From a virus, in IMG/VR virus record IMGVR_UViG_3300030616_000054, positions 1 through 37,512 of that record: a DNA stretch of 37,512 nt. One strand, written 5' to 3'. Each line of letters opens with the position of its first letter. The first letter of the stretch is position 1. Both the position numbers and the translations under genes were made by a program. The notes under the pieces were generated by a model. The model made no database searches and had not been told where the DNA came from. It was given only the letters and a program-made list of their open reading frames with translations. Below are positions 2,771 to 14,871 of this stretch, in pieces.

Positions 2771-2939
2771 AAGTATCAAGAGATCACACACGGTTGCCCC
2801 GAAGTTCACCGATGAGGAGTGGAGCCGAATCGATGAAACTCTCGCAAGCGTCGGACTCAAGAAAACCCACTTCTTCCGCCAGGCCATTCTCGAAAAACTC
2901 GCGCGTGATTTCCCCGAGTCCGGTCCTCCTGCAGCTTAA
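2736..2939 (+). CDS. Small ribbon-helix-helix-like DNA-binding protein
   Basis: 67 residues from ATG 2736. The core (VAPKFTDEEWSRIDETLASVG then KTHFFRQAILEKLAR) has the strand-helix-helix pattern of CopG/Arc-type RHH proteins. It is the first gene rightward from the repressor switch, so it is a candidate Cro-like regulator. The start is uncertain. ATG 2727 overlaps the -10 box and cannot lie in the mRNA. ATG 2736 would be seven bases after the -10 box, giving a leaderless message. An ATA at 2769 has an AGGA four bases upstream. Confidence 0.7.
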   Translation: MQKTICSIKETISIKRSHTVAPKFTDEEWSRIDETLASVGLKKTHFFRQAILEKLARDFPESGPPAA

Positions 2940-3141
2940 CCGCCTCCGTCGTCTGAACGCGGCAGTCAGACGACACCCGGGGCGAACCGACGAGGAGACC
3001 CGGGCTCTACTGGCGGAGTATCGAGATATCTACGGAGGAGGAAGCTATGGAAAACATCATTCTGACAGCGGGGATTCTGATCCTGTACATCGCGTACGTC
3101 GTCTTCGTGATCTGCCTGATCCGGCGGCCGAAGGTTTTTGA
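2905..3141 (+). CDS. Hypothetical protein, doubtful
   Basis: 78 codons from a GTG without a clear ribosome-binding site. The first part (LNRLRRLNAAVRRHPG, then DEETRALLAEYRDIYGGG) reads like a genuine helical protein and fills the 107-bp gap between two better-supported genes. The last third overlaps the membrane-protein gene at 3047 in another frame and looks like shadow sequence. No family is recognised. Confidence 0.3.
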   Translation: MISPSPVLLQLNRLRRLNAAVRRHPGRTDEETRALLAEYRDIYGGGSYGKHHSDSGDSDPVHRVRRLRDLPDPAAEGF

Positions 3142-3256
3142 GTACGACGTTTTCGAGCGCAGCAGGCGCTGGATCGACACGGTGGCCGCCTTCAGCCGGC
3201 GGGAGGTTGAGCGGCTCTACGGGGACTGCGAGGTCTACGTCAAGAAGCATCTATAA
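3047..3256 (+). CDS. Small single-pass membrane protein
   Basis: 69 residues, with GGAGGAGG seven bases before the ATG. Residues 4-25 (IILTAGILILYIAYVVFVICLI) form one transmembrane helix followed by RRPK, so the charged C-terminal 40 residues should face the cytoplasm. No family is recognised. As an early phage membrane protein it could be a host-takeover or superinfection factor, but nothing in the sequence decides this. Confidence 0.65.
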   Translation: MENIILTAGILILYIAYVVFVICLIRRPKVFEYDVFERSRRWIDTVAAFSRREVERLYGDCEVYVKKHL

Positions 3257-3282
3257 GTGGTTGGCAGCCAGGAGGAGGGAGT

Positions 3283-3729
3283 ATGCAGAGAACCGAGATA
3301 GAGGTCGCTTTCCAGCGAGTCATGGACGCGCTCGACGGGGCGCTCGCGACCGTCGAAAAAAACACCCGGGAGGCAACGCAGCCGGCGCTCTATGATCTGA
3401 GAGCCGCCTGCGCGTACAAGGGGATCACCTACGACTCGGCACGGAAGGTCAATCACCTCCAGCCGCTGTGCGGGTACTACACCCACTGGGAGGACACGGC
3501 GCAGCGACGTAAGCCGCGCTGGACGCGCGAGCAGATCGAGCCCTGGGCGCGGATAACGAGGCCGCAGCGGATCGAGTATGTCGAGGGCCTGCTCTACGGA
3601 GGCGACGCGGAGATCCGCGCCGGCGTGCTGCACATGCTTATCGCGGACGCAGAGCGCGGGCGGCTCCCGGAGTACCTCCAAGAGATCGTCGACGAGTACG
3701 TCGAGACGGTCAAGGGGAGGGCGGTATGA
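3283..3729 (+). CDS. Hypothetical protein with probable HTH segment
   Basis: 148 residues, with GGAGGAGGG before the ATG. Residues 36-66 (ALYDLRAACAYKGITYDSARK, then LQPLCGY) resemble the helix-turn-helix found in small phage proteins of the pattern LxxACxxKGxxYxTxxxxxxLQPxGG. The rest is predicted helical. It shares a 4-base ATGA overlap with the HNH gene, implying translational coupling. It may be an early regulator; the family assignment is by motif memory only. Confidence 0.6.
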   Translation: MQRTEIEVAFQRVMDALDGALATVEKNTREATQPALYDLRAACAYKGITYDSARKVNHLQPLCGYYTHWEDTAQRRKPRWTREQIEPWARITRPQRIEYVEGLLYGGDAEIRAGVLHMLIADAERGRLPEYLQEIVDEYVETVKGRAV

Positions 3730-5306: not shown

Positions 5307-5615
5307 ATGAATATACCGACGATGATGTCCAGAGACGAGGTCGCGACGCAGCAGTATCTGCGGATGCCGACGACGTTCCCGACGCTTCGGCGCTGCCCGG
5401 AGTGCCGGCGGGAGATGGTTACCAACGGCGAGGGGCGCTTCTGGTGCCTGGCGTGCGGCTTTCACGATCGGCAGGATATCCGCCGGCTGCGCCGGCTCGC
5501 CGGACGCACAACGGGGCCTCAGGGCCTGCGCGCCTGGGACCGGGATATACACAGCCAGGCGCAAGCTGCACTGTCGAAAAAGGGGAGGGGAAATGGAGAA
5601 AATACCGATCGCTAA
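5307..5615 (+). CDS. Zinc-ribbon protein
   Basis: 102 residues with GGAGGG eight bases upstream. Residues 30-50 hold two knuckles, CPEC and CLAC, separated by 12 residues, typical of a zinc ribbon. The C-terminus is basic (RRLRRLAGR). It is probably a small nucleic-acid-binding or adaptor protein of the early programme. Its end overlaps the start of the ParB-like gene by 23 bp. The function is not recognisable. Confidence 0.65.
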   Translation: MNIPTMMSRDEVATQQYLRMPTTFPTLRRCPECRREMVTNGEGRFWCLACGFHDRQDIRRLRRLAGRTTGPQGLRAWDRDIHSQAQAALSKKGRGNGENTDR

Positions 5616-6417
5616 AATCAAGAAAGTCGCGAATATCAGAAACGACAATGTTGAGATCGAGGACCTCGCCTCCTCAATCAAAGAACACGGGCTCCTGCAG
5701 CCGATCATTGTGAGCAAGGTCAACGGCGGATACCATTTGGTCGCTGGTCATCGCCGCTACAACGCCTGTAAGAGCCTTGGATGGACCGAAATCCCGGCAA
5801 TGATCGAGAACTTCGACAACCCGAAGGTGATACAACTCACGGAAAATATGCAGCGGAAAAATCTGTCAAAGATCGAAGAGGCGGAGAGTGTACATGATCT
5901 TCATGAGATGCTGAAAGTTCCCCGCACCAGGCTCGCGCAGATACTCGGGAAGGATGCCGGATGGATTGAGAAGAGGCTGCGACTCTACGAGGTACGGAAG
6001 CATCTGTTTTCAACCGGCATGCTCCCGACCCGTCTCATCGACTCCATGAGCTTCGATATCGCCTACATCGTTGCGAAATTCGAGAAGAAGTACTGGCTGC
6101 AGATGTGCGCCTATCTGCTCGGGAAGCGATGGATGCCCGAGCGGATCGAAGAGTACTGTCAGGGCGTCGTGGATCCGAACTATAGACCGATCCGCAAGAC
6201 GTACGAGAAAAATGAGGTCGATACCACCACGAGTAGAGAATCCATTAAGAAACGGCCGATCAACCAGATTCTCGAAGAGCTCGGTGAGTCGGAAGTTGAC
6301 CAGTTCTCAATCATCAAGGACGATCATGACACGATCATAAAGCTGTTGCCGTCTACAGAGGGAAGCTACCGTTACCTGCTGAAAGTACTTATTAAGCTCG
6401 GCGGGGAGGTGATATGA
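5593..6417 (+). CDS. ParB/Srx-domain DNA-binding protein
   Basis: 274 residues with GGGGAGGGG before the ATG. Residues 1-90 are a ParB N-terminal domain: IRNDNVEIEDLASSIKEHG, LVAGHRRYNACKSLGW (GHRR box, residues 52-55) and TENMQRKN (84-90). Residues 96-125 contain a helix-turn-helix (RTRLAQILGKDAGWIEKRLRLYEV). This is the organisation of ParB/Noc/SopB CTPase-type proteins. No ParA partner is present and the phage integrates, so partitioning is unlikely; a role in replication or transcription is more plausible. It overlaps the next gene by four bases. Confidence 0.85.
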   Translation: MEKIPIAKIKKVANIRNDNVEIEDLASSIKEHGLLQPIIVSKVNGGYHLVAGHRRYNACKSLGWTEIPAMIENFDNPKVIQLTENMQRKNLSKIEEAESVHDLHEMLKVPRTRLAQILGKDAGWIEKRLRLYEVRKHLFSTGMLPTRLIDSMSFDIAYIVAKFEKKYWLQMCAYLLGKRWMPERIEEYCQGVVDPNYRPIRKTYEKNEVDTTTSRESIKKRPINQILEELGESEVDQFSIIKDDHDTIIKLLPSTEGSYRYLLKVLIKLGGEVI

Positions 6418-6611
6418 ACGCAGCACTCATCAGGGAGGAGGCCGGCGGGATCCGGAACGATTACGTCCGGTCGGTGTTGCTCGGAGCGACTAAGCGGGAG
6501 AGCCCGATCGCCCATCTGACCGAGCAGACGGTCTGGAATCTGGCGAAGAGTTATCGGGAGCTCGAGGAGCGCGTGGCTGAGCTCGAGGAGAAGGTGGAGC
6601 AGTGCAGCTAA
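6414..6611 (+). CDS. Small coiled-coil protein
   Basis: 65 residues from an ATGA overlap with the ParB-like gene. The C-terminal 25 residues (SYRELEERVAELEEKVEQ) form a short leucine-heptad coiled coil. It overlaps the helicase start by 10 bp, so the three genes are translationally linked. It may be a helicase partner or adaptor; no family is recognised. Confidence 0.6.
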   Translation: MNAALIREEAGGIRNDYVRSVLLGATKRESPIAHLTEQTVWNLAKSYRELEERVAELEEKVEQCS

Positions 6612-8113
6612 GAAAGCACCAGGCCGAGATGGTCGGTATCTGCGAGAGGATCCTCGCAGGAGAGCGGATCCGCTCGATCGTCGCGGCGGTAACGCCGGGA
6701 GGCGGAAAGTCCGCCCTTCCGGTGATCCTCGCCGAGTACCTGATCCCGGAGATTGCCGAGCGCCTGCTGTGGGTCGTGCCGCGGAACAGCCTCAAATACC
6801 AGGGCGAGGGTGAGTTCACGGATCCGCGCTGGAATGTCGTTCATCGGCTCCGGGCAGTCAACGGGAACGAGGCGGATCCGGCACGAGGGAACGGCGGATA
6901 CATCACGACATACCAGGCGATCGGGCAGAACCCGGGGATACACGCGGCCGAGCTCCGGCGCCATCGATACATTCTCTTTCTCGACGAGCCGCATCATGTC
7001 AGCGTGGAGAGCAGCTGGGAGGACGCGCTCGCGCCGCTCGTTGAGGCTGCGGGGTTGGTAGTCTTCGCCTCCGGAACGCTCGCGAGGGGAGACGGCCGGG
7101 CGATTGCGTTTATCGGCTCGGCTCCGGATCTGGAGGCTATTCGCTATGGCAGGAGCGACGCGCTGCGCGACGGCGCGGTTGCTCCTGTTCATTTCCATAC
7201 TCTTGACGGATCGGCGGAGTGGGAGAACGAGGACGGGAGCCGCGGGAGCGTAGAGAGCCTCGAGGCGGCCGGCGACTACTCGCCGCAAGCGCTCTTCACG
7301 GCGCTGCGGACCGAGTACGCGCTCGAGCTGCTGTGGATGTGCTGGCGCGACTACGAGCGGGAGACGCAGAGGAATCCGCTCGCACAGATGCTCATCGTTG
7401 CTCCCTCGATCAAGCTCGCGCGGCAGTACCGCCGAGTGCTCAGCGCGCAGATCGGGCTTGACGTCCAGATCGCAACGAGCGAGGACACGAAGGCGGCCCG
7501 GGAGACGATCGCGGCGTACCGCCGAGGTGTGTATCCGATCCTTGTTACAGTCGCTATGGCCTACGAGGGCCTCTCCGTTCCGCAGATCTCGCACATCGCC
7601 TGTCTGACGCATATCCGCTCCATCCCCTGGCTCGAGCAGTGTTTCGCACGGGCGAATCGACTCGCGCCGGGGAAGAAGGCCGGGTACGTGTACGGGCCGG
7701 CGGACCGGCGATTTCTGGAGGCGATCCGCGCGATAGAGGACGAGCAGGAGCTGGCGATCCGGGAGCGCGAGGCGCGGGGCGAGAGAGAGGAGATAGAGGA
7801 GGAGAGGACCGGAGAGGCGCGGCCCTGGATCAATCCGCTGCGCAGCGGAGTACACGGCGCTGCGGATCTCCCGCCGGCCGATGGCCAGCGGGACTTCACG
7901 CCCTCAGAGCTCGAGACGGCGCTCCGGCGGAATATCCGGTACCTGCGCCGGCACGTACTCAACGGGACGCGGCACGGGAATCACGCGGTCAAGGAGCGGA
8001 TCTGGAATGCGATCGTCCGGCGGACGGTAGATAAGAAGATCGATGAGATGAACCTCGAGGAGCTCGAGGCGGTATGGAAGGCGATGCGGGACAGGTTCGG
8101 GGGCGAGCTATGA
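6602..8113 (+). CDS. Superfamily 2 DNA/RNA helicase
   Basis: 503 residues from GTG 6602. Motif I TPGGGKS (31-37), motif II LDEPH (127-131), motif III SGT (157-159), the second RecA-like domain with IVAPSIKLARQY (265-276) and VAMAYEGLSVPQ (317-328), and motif VI QCFARANR (346-353). It is probably a DEAD/DEAH-like translocase acting in replication or recombination. The C-terminal 130 residues are charged, without a known domain. It is convergent with the RHH gene and overlaps its end by 6 bp. Confidence 0.88.
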   Translation: MQLRKHQAEMVGICERILAGERIRSIVAAVTPGGGKSALPVILAEYLIPEIAERLLWVVPRNSLKYQGEGEFTDPRWNVVHRLRAVNGNEADPARGNGGYITTYQAIGQNPGIHAAELRRHRYILFLDEPHHVSVESSWEDALAPLVEAAGLVVFASGTLARGDGRAIAFIGSAPDLEAIRYGRSDALRDGAVAPVHFHTLDGSAEWENEDGSRGSVESLEAAGDYSPQALFTALRTEYALELLWMCWRDYERETQRNPLAQMLIVAPSIKLARQYRRVLSAQIGLDVQIATSEDTKAARETIAAYRRGVYPILVTVAMAYEGLSVPQISHIACLTHIRSIPWLEQCFARANRLAPGKKAGYVYGPADRRFLEAIRAIEDEQELAIREREARGEREEIEEERTGEARPWINPLRSGVHGAADLPPADGQRDFTPSELETALRRNIRYLRRHVLNGTRHGNHAVKERIWNAIVRRTVDKKIDEMNLEELEAVWKAMRDRFGGEL

Positions 8114-8583: not shown

Positions 8584-8686
8584 AGGACCAGCGGGAGGCG
8601 AGTGTATCGCTCCCTGCATGGCCCTCCACCATAGCCATTACCGGGGGAATACACCGGCCGGTGCAACGCCGGCCGCCTCCGGTCCT
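8584..8686 (+). ncRNA. Multi-branched leader RNA before the recombination operon
   Basis: AGGACC (8584-8589) pairs with GGTCCT (8681-8686) and closes three arms. Arm one is an 11-position hairpin (8591-8617, loop GTGTA). Arm two is ATGGC/GCCAT (8618-8622, 8634-8638) with CCTCC in its loop. Arm three is CGGCCGG/CCGGCCG (8655-8661, 8669-8675, loop 7 nt). The CCTCC can pair with GGAGG (8695-8699), the ribosome-binding site of the gene at 8705. TTT follows the closing stem. This suggests attenuation or translational control; no known riboswitch is recognised. Confidence 0.45.
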
Positions 8687-8704
8687 TTTATCGAGGAGGG
8701 TCTA

Positions 8705-9652
8705 ATGACCAGAGATCAAGCGAAGAAAGTCATTGAGAAGTACCCGAACGCAGTGAACTTCGTGAAGCGCTCCCACCTGGAGGAGCTCTCGCCGCTGCTG
8801 GAGGTACACGTCGAGGTGGTGGAGGTAAAGAAAAGCGACTTCCATCCACTCTCGGGGAATGTCTACTATCCGAAGAAGGAGACCACCGACCGGTTCGGTA
8901 ATGCAGCCGGGATCTCCTTCGCCACTGTGGACGTGGGAACGCGGCGCGAGGACGGCTCGTATATCGGCCGGGCGGTCCCGCAGGAGGTCGGTCCGGACGG
9001 GAAGCTGGTGCAGTGGGCTCCGACCGAGTACGAGTTCGATCCGGAGATCCGCGCCGAGGAGACGATCCTGCAGGACAAGTACAATAAGTACGGCACCGAG
9101 AAGGCGAAGAAGCTCCTGCTGCTGGGCTTGAAGAAGGTCGCACGACGGCGCGCCGATACCGGCGCCAGGGCCGCGGCGATTATCTCGGCGATCGGAATGC
9201 CGACTGGGCTCAGGGATCTGTTCGGAAAGAACGAACCGGAGGCCGCGACGCGCACGTTCCTCTTCTCGCGGATCATCGCGAACAGTAAGAACGAACTCGT
9301 GCTCCAGCGAGCCCTCGACAGCATGTTCACCACTACCGGCGCACTGTACGGAGGAGGAGCCGCGGCGCAAATCGAGGGGCCGGCGGCGAGCGAGCCGCGT
9401 GACGTATCTCCGGCCGAACCGGCCGCCGGCGACGACGTATGGGACGACGCCGGAGGCGAGGAGGAGCTCAGCGAGCGCGACCAGATGATCGCGACGCTCG
9501 AGGGATACCTGAACAGCAGCGTGCTTTCGGAGAAGGGGCAGAAGCTGGTCGGCCTGGCGGTAGAGAACCCGCAGGGGTACAGTGACGCCGACCTCGAGTA
9601 CCTGCTCACCAAGTGCCGCAAGAGCGCCGGTGAGGAAGGAGGTGCAGCGTGA
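8705..9652 (+). CDS. Putative single-strand annealing/recombination protein
   Basis: 315 residues from ATG 8705 with GAGGAGGG upstream; the open frame before it crosses the leader structure. Residues 25-190 (LLEVHVEVVEVKKSDFHP, YYPKKETTDRFGNAAGISF, AEETILQDKYNKYGTEKAKK, ARAAAIISAIGMP) have the look of phage RecT/ERF-like or DUF1071-like annealing proteins, which bind ssDNA. Residues 235-270 are an acidic Ala/Glu linker. It overlaps the SbcDC-like exonuclease start by four bases and SSB lies downstream, a typical annealase-exonuclease-SSB arrangement. The function comes mainly from context. Confidence 0.55.
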   Translation: MTRDQAKKVIEKYPNAVNFVKRSHLEELSPLLEVHVEVVEVKKSDFHPLSGNVYYPKKETTDRFGNAAGISFATVDVGTRREDGSYIGRAVPQEVGPDGKLVQWAPTEYEFDPEIRAEETILQDKYNKYGTEKAKKLLLLGLKKVARRRADTGARAAAIISAIGMPTGLRDLFGKNEPEAATRTFLFSRIIANSKNELVLQRALDSMFTTTGALYGGGAAAQIEGPAASEPRDVSPAEPAAGDDVWDDAGGEEELSERDQMIATLEGYLNSSVLSEKGQKLVGLAVENPQGYSDADLEYLLTKCRKSAGEEGGAA

Positions 9653-12600
9653 GGATTTTACATCTTTCGGATTTACATCTCCGCGCCTCGCGTGGAGAGG
9701 AGAGCCTCCGGGCTCTCGATGCGATCGAGCAGATCGCCGTAGAGCAGGACGTCGACCTGATCGCGATCGCCGGCGATACCTGGGACGGAGCGGTACAGAA
9801 TACCGCCGGCGCGATGCTCTCGACGTTCGTCGAGCGGATCCGGCTCCTGGCGAATATCGCCCCAGTGGTGATGATCTACGGGACGCCGAGCCACGACACG
9901 GCTGGCAGTCTTGAGATCTTCGAGCAGGTAGATAGCAGGCACGGGATCACGATCCTTCGGCCGGGGAAGGGATACTTTTTCAACGAGAAAACGAAAACAC
10001 AGACCGTATTCGATGAGCCGGAGGTTGCAGGCATCAAGGACAGCCTTCTGATCTTCGGTGTTCCCGAGCCATCGAAGAAATGGATCGCGGGACTGGCCGG
10101 AGATAAAGAGACCGCCGAGGCCGGCGGTCGTCAGGCGCTGCGGAATCTCTTTCTCGGGTTGGCAGCCAAGAGGAAAGAACACGCAGATCTGCCCTGTCTC
10201 CTACTGTATCACGGGGAGATCGCCGGCGCAACCACCGCGACCGGATATCAGAGCGAGGCGAATACGAGCCTCGTCGTCACACGCGAGGACCTCGCGGCGG
10301 TAGGGGCCGACTATGTGGCCTGCGGACATATCCACGAGCCGCAGGAAGTCGGCCCGGGGATCTTCTACGCCGGTAGCGCCTTCCCGCAAAACTGGGGAGA
10401 GACGCACCAGGCGGGCGTGAATATCGTCGAAATTCGGAAGAATAATGCAGGGCCGGATAGCGGCTGGGGGGGCAATATGTATGTGACGACGATTGCACGC
10501 ATCGATCTCCCGTTCCCGCAGCGGGTGAAGCTCACAACTACCTGGCCCGAGGGGCCTGACGTGTTCACCGAACCCGCCGATATCGCGGAGAAGCTGGTAT
10601 GGATCGAGGCGACTGTATCGCAGGATACCGCGGCGGCGTTCGATCAGGACACCTCCCTCGAGAGGCTCCTGTCCCTTGGAGCCCTCGAGGGCTCCCGCGT
10701 CACCCTGAACGTACTCCCGACCGAGACGGTCCGCGCCGAGGAGATCGCGGAGGCGGCGAGCCTCCGGAAGAAGGTCTCTATCTGGGCCGAGAGCTCGGGC
10801 GAAGAGATCGCCGAGTCGGTACTCAATCGGGCGGACGTGCTCGAGGAGGAGGCCTGCGCCGCCGGCGTAACCGGGCAGGGTTCGCATATCCGCATCGACC
10901 GGCTGATTCTGCGGGGATCGGTCGGGATCTGGCGCGGGACCGGACTCGATACGATCGAGATCGACTTCGCTGATTACGAGCACGGACTCATCGCAATGAT
11001 CGGATCGAACGGAAAAGGAAAAACGACGCTGTTAGAGAATATGCACCCCTGGCCGCAGATGCTCACCCGCGAGGGAAAGCTCCAGGACCATTTCCGCCTG
11101 CGCGATTCATACCGGGATCTGTACTTCACCGACGAACGCGGCGGTGTACGCTACCGCGCGCTCATGCAGATCGACGGGCAGAACAAGAGTGGATCCATCG
11201 ACTACTACCTCTATCGCTGGGAGTACGGCCTGGACGGGGAGAGCTGGCAGCCTCTGGCGGATATCAACGGCCGGCGGGAGCCTTATGTCGAGGCGATCGA
11301 GGGGCTCTACGGATCCCTCGCCCTGTACCTCCGCAGCGCCTTCATCAGCCAGCGGCCGACGAAGGGGAACCCCGACCTGGCCGACGCGACGAAGGGAGAG
11401 CGGAAGGCGCTCTTCCGCGAGCTCGCCGGTCTGGACTACCTGCAGGGGTACGCCGACGCGGCGAAGGAGAAGGCGAAAGCGCTCGAGAGCGAGATCGCTA
11501 CGGATACTGGACGATGTCAGGCGCTGGAGAGCCTGGTCGAGGAGATCCCCGAGATCGAGGGACGTATCACCACAGGCCGCGCAGCGGTGAAAGATATCGA
11601 CGCTGTGATCGCCGAGTGCAGCGATAGCCTGTCCGTACTGCAGGGAGACCTGGAGGCGGCAGGGAAGCGGCTCGAGAAGGCCCGGGAGACGGAGCGCAAG
11701 GTCTCCGAGATCGGCTCCTCGCTTGCACGCCTCAGCGGAGAAGCGCGGGAGCTCGAGAGGAGCGCTGAGAGTTACCGGGCGGCGCTTGATAAGCGAGAGG
11801 CAGCCCGGCAGGCAATCGGAGAGTACGAGCAACTCACCGCCGAGCGGGCAGAGCTGCAGAAGCAGTATCAGAAGCATCTCGAGGAGGAGAAGCGGATCCT
11901 CGCGGACTGGCACGCTGCGAAGGACGAGAAGCAGGCCGAGCGGGAGAAGTACCGCGAGGGGATCGCTGGCAGCCAGAGCGAGGTGAACCAGCTCAAGCGG
12001 GAGGAAGCGGCAACCGAAACGATGATCACCAGCCTCGCCGGAGAGCTCATGGTGCCGATCAGCGAGACCTGCCCGACCTGTGGGCAAAGCTGGCCGGCAG
12101 AGCGGAAAGAGCAGTACCTGGGCGAGCGGGCCGAGAAAGAGGGAAGGCTCGCAGAGTTGCAGAGGCACGCCCGGGAGCTGGCCGATAAAATCATGGGCCT
12201 CGAGGCAGTTATCAGTGCCAACACCGACGCCATGAACGCGATCGGAGACCCGGAGAAGCCGGAGGTCCCGGAGTGGGACGAGGCGCCGCTGCGGAAAATA
12301 GAGACCGCACTCGAGTGGATCGAGATCGAGGCAGAGCGGGAGATCCTACAACGCGCCGACATGGCCGAGGCGAAACTCGAGGGAATAGCCGAACGGGTCT
12401 CTGCGATCGAGGCCGAGATCAAACGACTCGATACGGAGCAGTCCGAGTGGAAAGCGAAAGCGGATCCGGAGGCCGAGAGAATAGAGCGCGGAGCGAGGAT
12501 CGCGCTGGAGGGGATGCAGAGTAAGCTCGCCGGCGAACGGGAGCGGAAGGCAACCTACGCCGCACGGCTCGAGGAGCTCGAGGGGCAGCTCGCAGGGCTG

Positions 12601-13200
12601 CGGGAGAAAAAGGCCGAGGCGGAAAAGCTCCGCGGCCGGCTCGAGGCGAATCGGCAGACGGTCAGCGATTGGCAGTACCTCCAGAGGGCCTGTGGGCCGG
12701 ACGGGATCCAGGCGCTCGAGCTCGACGCCTTGGCGCCCTCGATCGCGCAGGTCGCGAATCGGCTCCTGGCCGCGGCGTACGACAGTCGCTTCCGGATCGA
12801 GTTTCGCACCACCAGGATCGGAGGATCCGGCTCGCGCGTGAAGCAGATGGAAACGTTCGAGGTCTACATCCACGACACCGAGGCGGGGACGGAGCAGGAG
12901 CTCAAGACGCTCAGCGGAGGCGAGGGCGTGTGGATCAAGAAGGCTATCTACGACGCGTTCGGGATCATCCGCGCACAGAATACCGGCACGCGGTTCACAA
13001 CCGCCTTCTTCGACGAGGCCGACGGAGCGCTCGACCCGGATGCGCGCGAGAGGTACTTCCGGATGCTCGAGGCGGCGCACGCAGAGAGCGGCCGGCGGCA
13101 CACGATCGTGATCACTCACAGCCGCGAGATCCAGGAGATGATCGAGCAGCAGATCGTGATGGACGAGCTCGTAGAGGCGCGCGAGGGGGTGGCGGTATGA
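9649..13200 (+). CDS. SbcD-SbcC (Mre11-Rad50-like) fusion nuclease-ATPase
   Basis: 1183 residues from GTG 9649. Residues 1-250 are a calcineurin-type nuclease: DLH (8-10), GDTWD (42-46), GTPSHD (78-83, replacing the usual GNHD), YHGE (187-190), GHIH (226-229). Residues 251-400 match the SbcD capping region. From 413 a Rad50/SbcC-type ATPase begins: Walker A GSNGKGKTT (452-460), Q-loop FISQRP (565-570), coiled coil from about 605 to 1000 with the zinc hook CPTC (808-811), signature LSGGEG (1088-1093), Walker B FFDEAD (1120-1125). Bacterial and T4/T5 systems use two polypeptides. Here there is one uninterrupted frame without internal stops. It probably resects DNA ends for the upstream annealing protein. 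Confidence 0.93.
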   Translation: MRILHLSDLHLRASRGEESLRALDAIEQIAVEQDVDLIAIAGDTWDGAVQNTAGAMLSTFVERIRLLANIAPVVMIYGTPSHDTAGSLEIFEQVDSRHGITILRPGKGYFFNEKTKTQTVFDEPEVAGIKDSLLIFGVPEPSKKWIAGLAGDKETAEAGGRQALRNLFLGLAAKRKEHADLPCLLLYHGEIAGATTATGYQSEANTSLVVTREDLAAVGADYVACGHIHEPQEVGPGIFYAGSAFPQNWGETHQAGVNIVEIRKNNAGPDSGWGGNMYVTTIARIDLPFPQRVKLTTTWPEGPDVFTEPADIAEKLVWIEATVSQDTAAAFDQDTSLERLLSLGALEGSRVTLNVLPTETVRAEEIAEAASLRKKVSIWAESSGEEIAESVLNRADVLEEEACAAGVTGQGSHIRIDRLILRGSVGIWRGTGLDTIEIDFADYEHGLIAMIGSNGKGKTTLLENMHPWPQMLTREGKLQDHFRLRDSYRDLYFTDERGGVRYRALMQIDGQNKSGSIDYYLYRWEYGLDGESWQPLADINGRREPYVEAIEGLYGSLALYLRSAFISQRPTKGNPDLADATKGERKALFRELAGLDYLQGYADAAKEKAKALESEIATDTGRCQALESLVEEIPEIEGRITTGRAAVKDIDAVIAECSDSLSVLQGDLEAAGKRLEKARETERKVSEIGSSLARLSGEARELERSAESYRAALDKREAARQAIGEYEQLTAERAELQKQYQKHLEEEKRILADWHAAKDEKQAEREKYREGIAGSQSEVNQLKREEAATETMITSLAGELMVPISETCPTCGQSWPAERKEQYLGERAEKEGRLAELQRHARELADKIMGLEAVISANTDAMNAIGDPEKPEVPEWDEAPLRKIETALEWIEIEAEREILQRADMAEAKLEGIAERVSAIEAEIKRLDTEQSEWKAKADPEAERIERGARIALEGMQSKLAGERERKATYAARLEELEGQLAGLREKKAEAEKLRGRLEANRQTVSDWQYLQRACGPDGIQALELDALAPSIAQVANRLLAAAYDSRFRIEFRTTRIGGSGSRVKQMETFEVYIHDTEAGTEQELKTLSGGEGVWIKKAIYDAFGIIRAQNTGTRFTTAFFDEADGALDPDARERYFRMLEAAHAESGRRHTIVITHSREIQEMIEQQIVMDELVEAREGVAV

Positions 13201-13400: not shown

Positions 13401-13856
13401 ATGGCTAACGATATAAATCAGGTAATTCTGGTCGGGAGGCTCACGCGTGAGGCGGAGCTGAAGTACACACAGGGGGGGACGGCGATCTGTAAGTTTTCGA
13501 TCGCCGTGAACCGCAGCCGGAAGAACGGCGAGGAGTGGACCGAGGAGGCGCATTTCTTCGATGTCGTGCTCTGGGGCCGGCAGGGAGAGGCGATCCATCA
13601 GTACCTCTCGAAGGGGAAGCAGGTCGCCGTTGCCGGCGAGCTGCGGCAGAACCGCTGGCAGACCGACGACGGGCAGAACCGCAGCAAGGTCGAGATCCAC
13701 GCTCTGAACGTGCAGCTGCTCGGGGGAGCGAAGGGCGAGGGATCCGGAGGCCAGCAGTCGGGCGGGTACAACCGCAAGACCGCAGCGGACGCGGTATGGG
13801 ACGAGCCGGCGCCGAGCGCCGGTCCGGAGAACTTCGAAGACGATATACCGTTCTGA
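13401..13856 (+). CDS. ssb: Single-stranded DNA-binding protein
   Basis: 151 residues with AAAGGAG upstream. Residues 1-108 are the OB-fold of bacterial SSB (INQVILVGRLTREAELKYTQ, FSIAVNR, FFDVVLWGRQGE, YLSKGKQVAVAGEL, NRWQTDDGQNRSKVEI). A glycine-rich flexible linker follows, then the acidic C-terminal tail FEDDIPF that recruits partner proteins. It protects ssDNA and supports replication and annealing. The position after the nuclease/annealase genes fits a recombination cassette. Confidence 0.97.
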   Translation: MANDINQVILVGRLTREAELKYTQGGTAICKFSIAVNRSRKNGEEWTEEAHFFDVVLWGRQGEAIHQYLSKGKQVAVAGELRQNRWQTDDGQNRSKVEIHALNVQLLGGAKGEGSGGQQSGGYNRKTAADAVWDEPAPSAGPENFEDDIPF

Positions 13857-14162: not shown

Positions 14163-14384
14163 ATGGCTGATAAGAATAAACAGGTTACCTTCTCGCTGCG
14201 AAGCGCAGCCGAGAAGACGGAAATAGAGGAGTATGCGGCCGAGAAAGGGTTCCTGAATGTTGGCTCTCTCGCGCGCTTCGCCCTCTATCAGTACATGACG
14301 CGCTGTCCGTCGAGACGGGCGCGGTGCAGTACTGCACGGGCGCAATCCGGCGAAAAAAGAGAGGGGGTTCAACGTGAAAAGTAA
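14163..14384 (+). CDS. Small RHH/MobC-like protein
   Basis: 73 residues. QVTFSLRSAAEKTEIEEYAAEKGFLNVGSLARFALYQYMTR has the strand-helix-helix order of RHH proteins, followed by a basic tail (RRARCSTARAQSGEKREG). It is probably DNA binding. The last 11 bp overlap the M23 peptidase start. It is the third RHH-like protein in the phage. Confidence 0.55.
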   Translation: MADKNKQVTFSLRSAAEKTEIEEYAAEKGFLNVGSLARFALYQYMTRCPSRRARCSTARAQSGEKREGVQREK

Positions 14385-14871
14385 GCAGTTTATAGCGATC
14401 GTTCTGATTCTGCTGTTTTCGGCGTCCATCGCGGGCGCCGAGAGCCCGCGGCGATGGCCGATCCTGGGGATGGAGCGCTCCGATATCACGAGCGATTTCG
14501 GATACCGCGAGGACGGCTTCGGAGGTCGGGAGGGGTTTCACTTCGCGATCGATGTCGCCGCCCGCCGCGGGACCCTGGTCCTGGCGACGCACGACGGGGT
14601 GGTCGTCGATCACTTCCCGCCGCCCGACGGCTGGTATCGCGGCCATGAGGTCTACGGCGGCTGCGTGCTGATCGTATCGGAGGACGGCTGGGCGACCTTT
14701 TACGCGCACCTCTCGGCGAGCTTTGTCCGCGAGGGCCAGCGGGTCACCGCAGGGCAGATGATCGGCCGGGTCGGCAGCACAGGGCTCTCGACGGGGAATC
14801 ACCTGCACTACGAGATCCTGATCGATCCGCTGCGCTATACCGAGGCGATGTTCGGGGAGGAGGGTCTATGA
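14374..14871 (+). CDS. Exported M23-family peptidase
   Basis: 165 residues from GTG 14374 with GAGGGGG upstream. Residues 1-22 are a signal peptide (KQFIAIVLILLFSASIAGA). The M23/LytM domain has His56-x3-Asp60 (HFAID), His112 (YAHLS) and His143-x-His145 (HLHYE), the full zinc-ligand and catalytic set, so it should cut peptidoglycan cross-bridges in the periplasm. It lies far from the lysis cassette, among early genes. It could assist lysis, or it could be expressed earlier for wall remodelling. An endolysin is already present at 35381. Confidence 0.85.
   Translation: MKSKQFIAIVLILLFSASIAGAESPRRWPILGMERSDITSDFGYREDGFGGREGFHFAIDVAARRGTLVLATHDGVVVDHFPPPDGWYRGHEVYGGCVLIVSEDGWATFYAHLSASFVREGQRVTAGQMIGRVGSTGLSTGNHLHYEILIDPLRYTEAMFGEEGL

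Follow-up and report, generated by a model that had tools for sequence, protein, structure and literature searches.

The frame at 9649-13200 of the window (the whole 37,512-nt stretch of viral DNA that was analyzed; the fusion and its parts, the partner gene, the helicase gene, and the SSB gene given below are on the plus strand) encodes a single-chain SbcD-SbcC (Mre11-Rad50) fusion of 1183 aa. Together with the gene directly upstream of it (8618-9652), which encodes a candidate annealing protein, it probably forms a phage recombination module. The conserved family, the two halves, the operon, the fold match, and the repeated fusion were seen by sequence and model.

The fused gene and its two halves

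The frame extends from a GTG start codon at 9649 to the stop codon at 13198-13200 (1183 codons, uninterrupted, with no internal stops). A strong Shine-Dalgarno sequence (AAGGAGGT) is located immediately 5' of the GTG. The start overlaps the upstream gene by 4 bases, and through this overlap the fusion gene is translationally coupled to its partner.

The SbcD/Mre11 half (9649-10863, residues 1 to ~405) comprises a metallophosphoesterase core, a cap, and a C-terminal helix-loop-helix, and was delimited by Pfam, the structure model, and the helices at residues 372-405. It is followed by a linker of ~7 residues (10864-10884, about residues 406-412, assigned from secondary structure and alignment) and by the SbcC/Rad50 half with the ABC ATPase lobes and coiled coil (10885-13197, residues 413-1183, from PHROG_77 and the model). 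The N-terminal half matched Pfam Metallophos (9.3e-10, residues 1-231) and PHROG SbcD (7.9e-15, residues 1-299), and the C-terminal half matched PHROG SbcC (PHROG_77; 4.3e-39, residues 572-1171), with the Pfam SbcC_Walker_B match slightly below the cut-off. When the 28-member family profile was compared with solved structures, Mre11/SbcD was the best match (5.9e-20) and Rad50/SbcC stood lower in the list. In the AlphaFold2 model (mean pLDDT 81), residues 1-353 aligned to E. coli SbcD (Z 27.4), and residues 412-1179 to Rad50 (5dny, Z 28.0) and to the E. coli SbcC heads (Z 27.5). The last SbcD helix covers residues 389-405 and the first SbcC strand begins at 413; with a linker this short and both halves aligned, each half is whole and there is no further insertion between them.

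The nuclease motifs found were D8/H10, GD at residues 42-43, GTPSHD at 78-83 (9880-9897, in place of GNHD), H188, and H227/H229. The metal-binding and catalytic residues of the calcineurin-like phosphoesterases are thus present (D8, H10, D43, H82, H188, H227, and H229), with the motif III Asn replaced by Ser. The ATPase half has Walker A (GSNGKGKT, residues 452-459, 11002-11025), the zinc-hook motif (CPTC, residues 808-811, 12070-12081), the ABC signature (LSGGEG, residues 1088-1093, 12910-12927), the Walker B region (FFDEAD, residues 1120-1125, 13006-13023), and H1157. As in SbcCD, the ABC ATPase is interrupted by a long coiled coil with a CxxC zinc hook at the apex, CPTC being placed in the model between helices 716-800 and 817-864. 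The single frame with an N-terminal nuclease is also the arrangement by which Mre11/Rad50 fusions are recognized (PMC3175470). The original prediction of one 1183-codon frame carrying a complete nuclease, then a complete ATPase with CPTC and LSGGEG, was therefore borne out by the frame, Pfam/PHROG, and the model alike.

Fused relatives in viral contigs

Fused relatives were collected by two alignment-based profile scans of viral contigs, followed by frame analysis; a viral scan with the fusion protein sequence alone returned no matches. The original prediction had proposed a search for homologues with the same domain order, and this was productive: both halves were found in one frame (~1,085-1,340 codons) in 30 other viral contigs of the same clade, and ~38 contigs made up a second, distant fused group (Clostridium-type). 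Members of the clade were mostly full-length proteins of ~1,130-1,290 residues, with overall identity of ~26-43% across the whole protein (alignment A4). Walker A, the signature, and Walker B hardly varied among the 28 members of this alignment, all of which had both hook cysteines (C808 and C811). A CPxC-type hook was present across the clade (CALC in one member). In the stretch scanned, CxxC was mostly absent from the second fused group and from split relatives. Among the contigs of the second group are MT837445, recorded from human faeces, and L125, an isolate-genome contig of 59,182 bases that, judged by its size, may be the plasmid of C. kluyveri treated in the 2011 fusion paper. The scan of genome contigs yielded a single split locus, in an Ignavibacteriaceae MAG (L086), and no close member of the clade was present among the GenBank phages searched.

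In one close relative (L009), the fused gene was in two pieces, with an HNH endonuclease gene (2819-3310) inserted where the nuclease core meets the cap and ATGA overlaps linking it to each piece. In another contig (L007, 6394-6879), an HNH endonuclease gene of the same kind separates the partner gene from the fusion. Both look like free-standing homing endonucleases.

Phylogeny of the halves

Quick trees were built for SbcD (86 rows, 382 columns) and for the SbcC lobes (366 columns). The 25 representatives of the fused clade grouped together among split relatives in both (SH-aLRT 99 for SbcD and 100 for SbcC), and the 18 Clostridium-type fusions were placed elsewhere in both, near the split loci L133, L140, L148, and L160. 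A single clade of all fusions was rejected by the AU test on a 36-row subset of the SbcC lobes (dlnL 82.6, p 7.8e-5). A common origin with the other fusions, assessed for the Clostridium-type group alone, was thus rejected on the SbcC lobes, with both trees in agreement, and unless the fusion was lost in many lines, it arose at least twice. Judged from these trees, which had long branches among distant rows and did not include Mimivirus R555, Deferribacter, or the eukaryotic fusions, the fusion belongs to a lineage apart from the Clostridium type, one that arose on its own. The locus L099, on a long branch, may be a third fusion.

The two halves differed in their nearest relative. The SbcD half was nearest to L010 (residues 1-400, 94 L010-only against 47 L008-only sites, p 9e-5) and the SbcC half to L008 (44 vs 25, p 0.03; 25 vs 8, p 0.005), these p values being optimistic as the pair was chosen after the trees had been viewed. 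The switch was located near residues 380-410, which suggests an exchange near the fusion junction and mosaic halves. The partner gene was also closer to the L010 group (39% vs 26% identity).

The upstream gene and its operon

The partner gene (8618-9652, 344 aa) encodes a candidate Rad52/Red-beta-type single-strand annealing protein. Its own sequence had no match in Pfam, NCBIfam, or PHROG, but it belongs to a family in which 22 of the 27 aligned homologues matched PHROG_13782, a family with no assigned function. Sequence searches against Pfam, NCBIfam, PHROGs, and PDB profiles gave the partner no function and no annealing protein as a match, its profile did not match lambda Red-beta significantly (E 0.078), and tblastn found no match in GenBank phages. 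A viral scan with lambda Red-beta, made for profile building, returned near-identical copies only.

The structure model of the partner had a pLDDT of 82, with the core mostly above 90. RAD52 was its best PDB match (Foldseek E 0.07, not significant; VIA-align 2 Z 7.1, under 8), and Mgm101 (Z 5.1) and lambda Red-beta (Z 4.7) were among the other listed matches. Named matches in the viral structure library included several Rad52/59/22, RecT, ERF, and "essential recombination function" proteins. The assignment as an annealase is proposed because two structure libraries point to the same functional class, which the operon suits, no single score being decisive. The operon contains a nuclease and a single-strand DNA-binding protein (SSB), as annealing-protein operons do: the SSB gene (13401-13856, 151 aa) is the next one downstream of the fusion, and a Superfamily 2 helicase (6602-8113, 503 aa) is encoded two genes upstream of it. 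Some streptococcal phages, in which sbcC adjoins sak4, already provide a case of a recombinase next to SbcC (PMC8093625).

The gene directly upstream of sbcD was scored with the iterated partner profile in 84 phage, plasmid, and bacterial loci. A partner homologue was found there in 66 of these, in three architectures: 22 of 24 testable clade members (the flank of L026 was too short to tell), 18 of 18 Clostridium-type fusions, L099, and 25 of 40 split loci. Many of the homologues overlapped sbcD by 1 or 4 bases. The deepest members of the fused clade (L101 and L107) had no partner homologue upstream.

The fused enzyme might instead act alone, in host-DNA breakdown or in hairpin/palindrome cleavage as E. 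coli SbcCD and T4 gp46/47 do, with the upstream gene unlinked to it. The nuclease-ATPase is complete, T4 gp46/47 carries annotations for both recombination and the degradation of host DNA, and the plasmid relatives and a few phages have no upstream partner. We nevertheless consider such an enzyme unlikely, as an adjacency kept in so many loci and in three architectures, often with overlapping frames, is hard to explain without a shared function.

Elsewhere in the window, tRNA-Val (87-161) is followed by a tyrosine integrase gene (241-1545, Pfam PF00589), which is probably a prophage end. A head and tail gene set is also present, and with the integrase beside the tRNA gene it indicates that the phage is probably temperate. 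The early region of this integrase-carrying phage encodes a ParB-like protein (5593-6417). A small M23 peptidase with a signal-like N-terminus (14374-14871, 165 aa) is encoded among the early genes, outside the structural block, and is possibly a lysis enzyme.

The nuclease active site

The change from GNHD to GTPSHD was described accurately in the original prediction and consists of two inserted residues plus the replacement of Asn by Ser. In canonical Mre11, this Asn is a metal ligand. The motif is not a peculiarity of this protein: the form GT-x-[S/T]-HD is general in the clade (position 81 was Ser in 10, Thr in 13, Ala in one, and His in one of the 25 representatives), and Ser was found in 25 of 40 split relatives. 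Asn was kept in all 18 Clostridium-type fusions. Being common to the clade and many unfused relatives, the insertion and the Asn change are old and general. The metal-binding His of the GHIH motif (H227) was Asp in 6 of the 23 clade members having a residue there, and the same His-to-Asp change is reported for Mimivirus R555 (PMC3175470).

These replacements, of the motif III Asn in every representative and of H227 in some, would suit a structural tether with a weak or dead nuclease, the more so with the Mimivirus parallel. This reading is improbable, and somewhat more so than that of an enzyme acting alone. D8, H10, D43, H82, and H188 did not vary in any of the 25 representatives, H229 was kept wherever the residue was present, and the motif III change, being shared with most split relatives, is an old feature of a site that is conserved in other respects. 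On the residues conserved, the nuclease is most likely active, with its metal site altered.

The junction and the single chain

The original prediction held that fusion fixes a 1:1 stoichiometry, but the ordinary Mre11-Rad50 complex already contains two of each chain. The unusual geometry that it expected was not supported either. In T. maritima, the C-terminus of Mre11 is located ~28 Angstrom from the N-terminus of Rad50, a gap bridged by 9-12 residues, and the domain order fits the complex (PMC3175470); the fusion keeps the whole C-terminal region of Mre11 and adds a short linker only.

Separate proteins could still be made in the cell from the fused gene, by an internal start or by proteolysis in the linker, and the two-piece gene of L009 suggests that pieces can work in trans. 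The break in L009 falls elsewhere, inside the SbcD half. The linker of the fusion has no start codon with a ribosome-binding site, and the same was true of 27 of 28 members; a ribosome-binding site and start were present at the linker in a single member and are not conserved. Production as separate proteins is thus very improbable. An assembly or sequencing artefact joining two genes would need little change, given that the genes of an annotated split relative (Leptospira phage LE1) overlap by 4 bases, but it is ruled out by the 30 independent homologous contigs sharing the architecture, with a conserved junction region and a clade supported in both trees. With so many fused homologues, the two doubts raised alongside the original prediction, an artefact and homologues that are always split, both fall away.

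Comparison with known systems

The original prediction regarded the family as known from separate proteins only, but Mre11/Rad50 fusions were described by Yoshida, Claverie, and Ogata in 2011 in Mimivirus R555, Clostridium kluyveri plasmids, Ruminococcus, Anaerostipes, Deferribacter, and several eukaryotes, with a truncated fusion in Bacillus phage 0305phi8-36 (PMC3175470). The fusion architecture has thus been known since 2011. Like the protein studied here, these are one polypeptide with the nuclease first and the ATPase second, in viruses or plasmids; they were considered polyphyletic, and repeated fusion in viruses was argued (PMC3175470). No later work following up these fusions was found in a partial literature search. 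As far as the sequences compared here indicate, what is new is a separate fused lineage, outside the GenBank phage set searched. The Clostridium-type fusions differ from it in tree position, in the hook (mostly no CxxC in the stretch scanned, CPxC-type here), and in motif III (Asn, Ser/Thr here).

The split SbcD and SbcC of phages and plasmids (Leptospira phage LE1, Burkholderiales plasmids) have the same domains in two genes, with 23-28% identity to the halves of the fusion. The LE1 gene that precedes sbcD has weak homology to the partner. The Burkholderiales plasmids have a GT-x-SH motif like that of the fusion, but an extra gene is located between sbcD and sbcC, and the partner gene was not detected. 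E. coli SbcCD and T4 gp46-gp47 share the motif order and, as compared for E. coli SbcCD, the fold of both halves; unlike the fusion, they are two chains with GNHD in motif III. In lambda Red (bet-exo) and RecET, the annealing-protein gene is directly upstream of the nuclease gene, with a 4-base overlap in lambda. Their nuclease, a small exonuclease, belongs to a different family, and Red-beta has no significant sequence similarity to the partner.

A proposed recombination module

A recombination module of nuclease and annealing protein is favored because the partner is located upstream of sbcD, a helicase upstream, and an SSB downstream, and because lambda bet-exo has the same order. Counted against it were the replacement of the motif III Asn by Ser/Thr, H227D in some members, the partner Z below 8, and the two clade members with no partner. 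In such a module, two fused chains would dimerize to give the usual two nucleases and two ATPases. The ATP-bound heads would clamp a DNA end or hairpin, and ATP hydrolysis would free the nuclease to cut and resect the DNA end. The annealing protein and the phage SSB could then take the single strand and pair it with a homologous strand, and the outcome may be genome circularization, concatemer formation, repair, or recombination-dependent replication.

Beyond this phage, PHROG_13782 and its relatives may well be unrecognized Rad52/Red-beta-type annealases that serve as dedicated partners of phage Mre11-Rad50, the two forming a minimal Rad52-Mre11-Rad50 module in which the nuclease and ATPase became one chain independently in several lineages. 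The assignment of the partner as an annealing protein is the most useful new lead, as PHROG_13782, a family lacking annotation, gains a concrete and checkable identity as a candidate annealase from its fold match and its place upstream of sbcD. A large clade of single-chain Mre11-Rad50 proteins in phages offers a testable system, in which having a single chain makes structural and mutational studies of the head complex simpler. If the assignment is true, Red and RecET would be joined by a further type of annealase-nuclease pair, which might be of use in recombineering.
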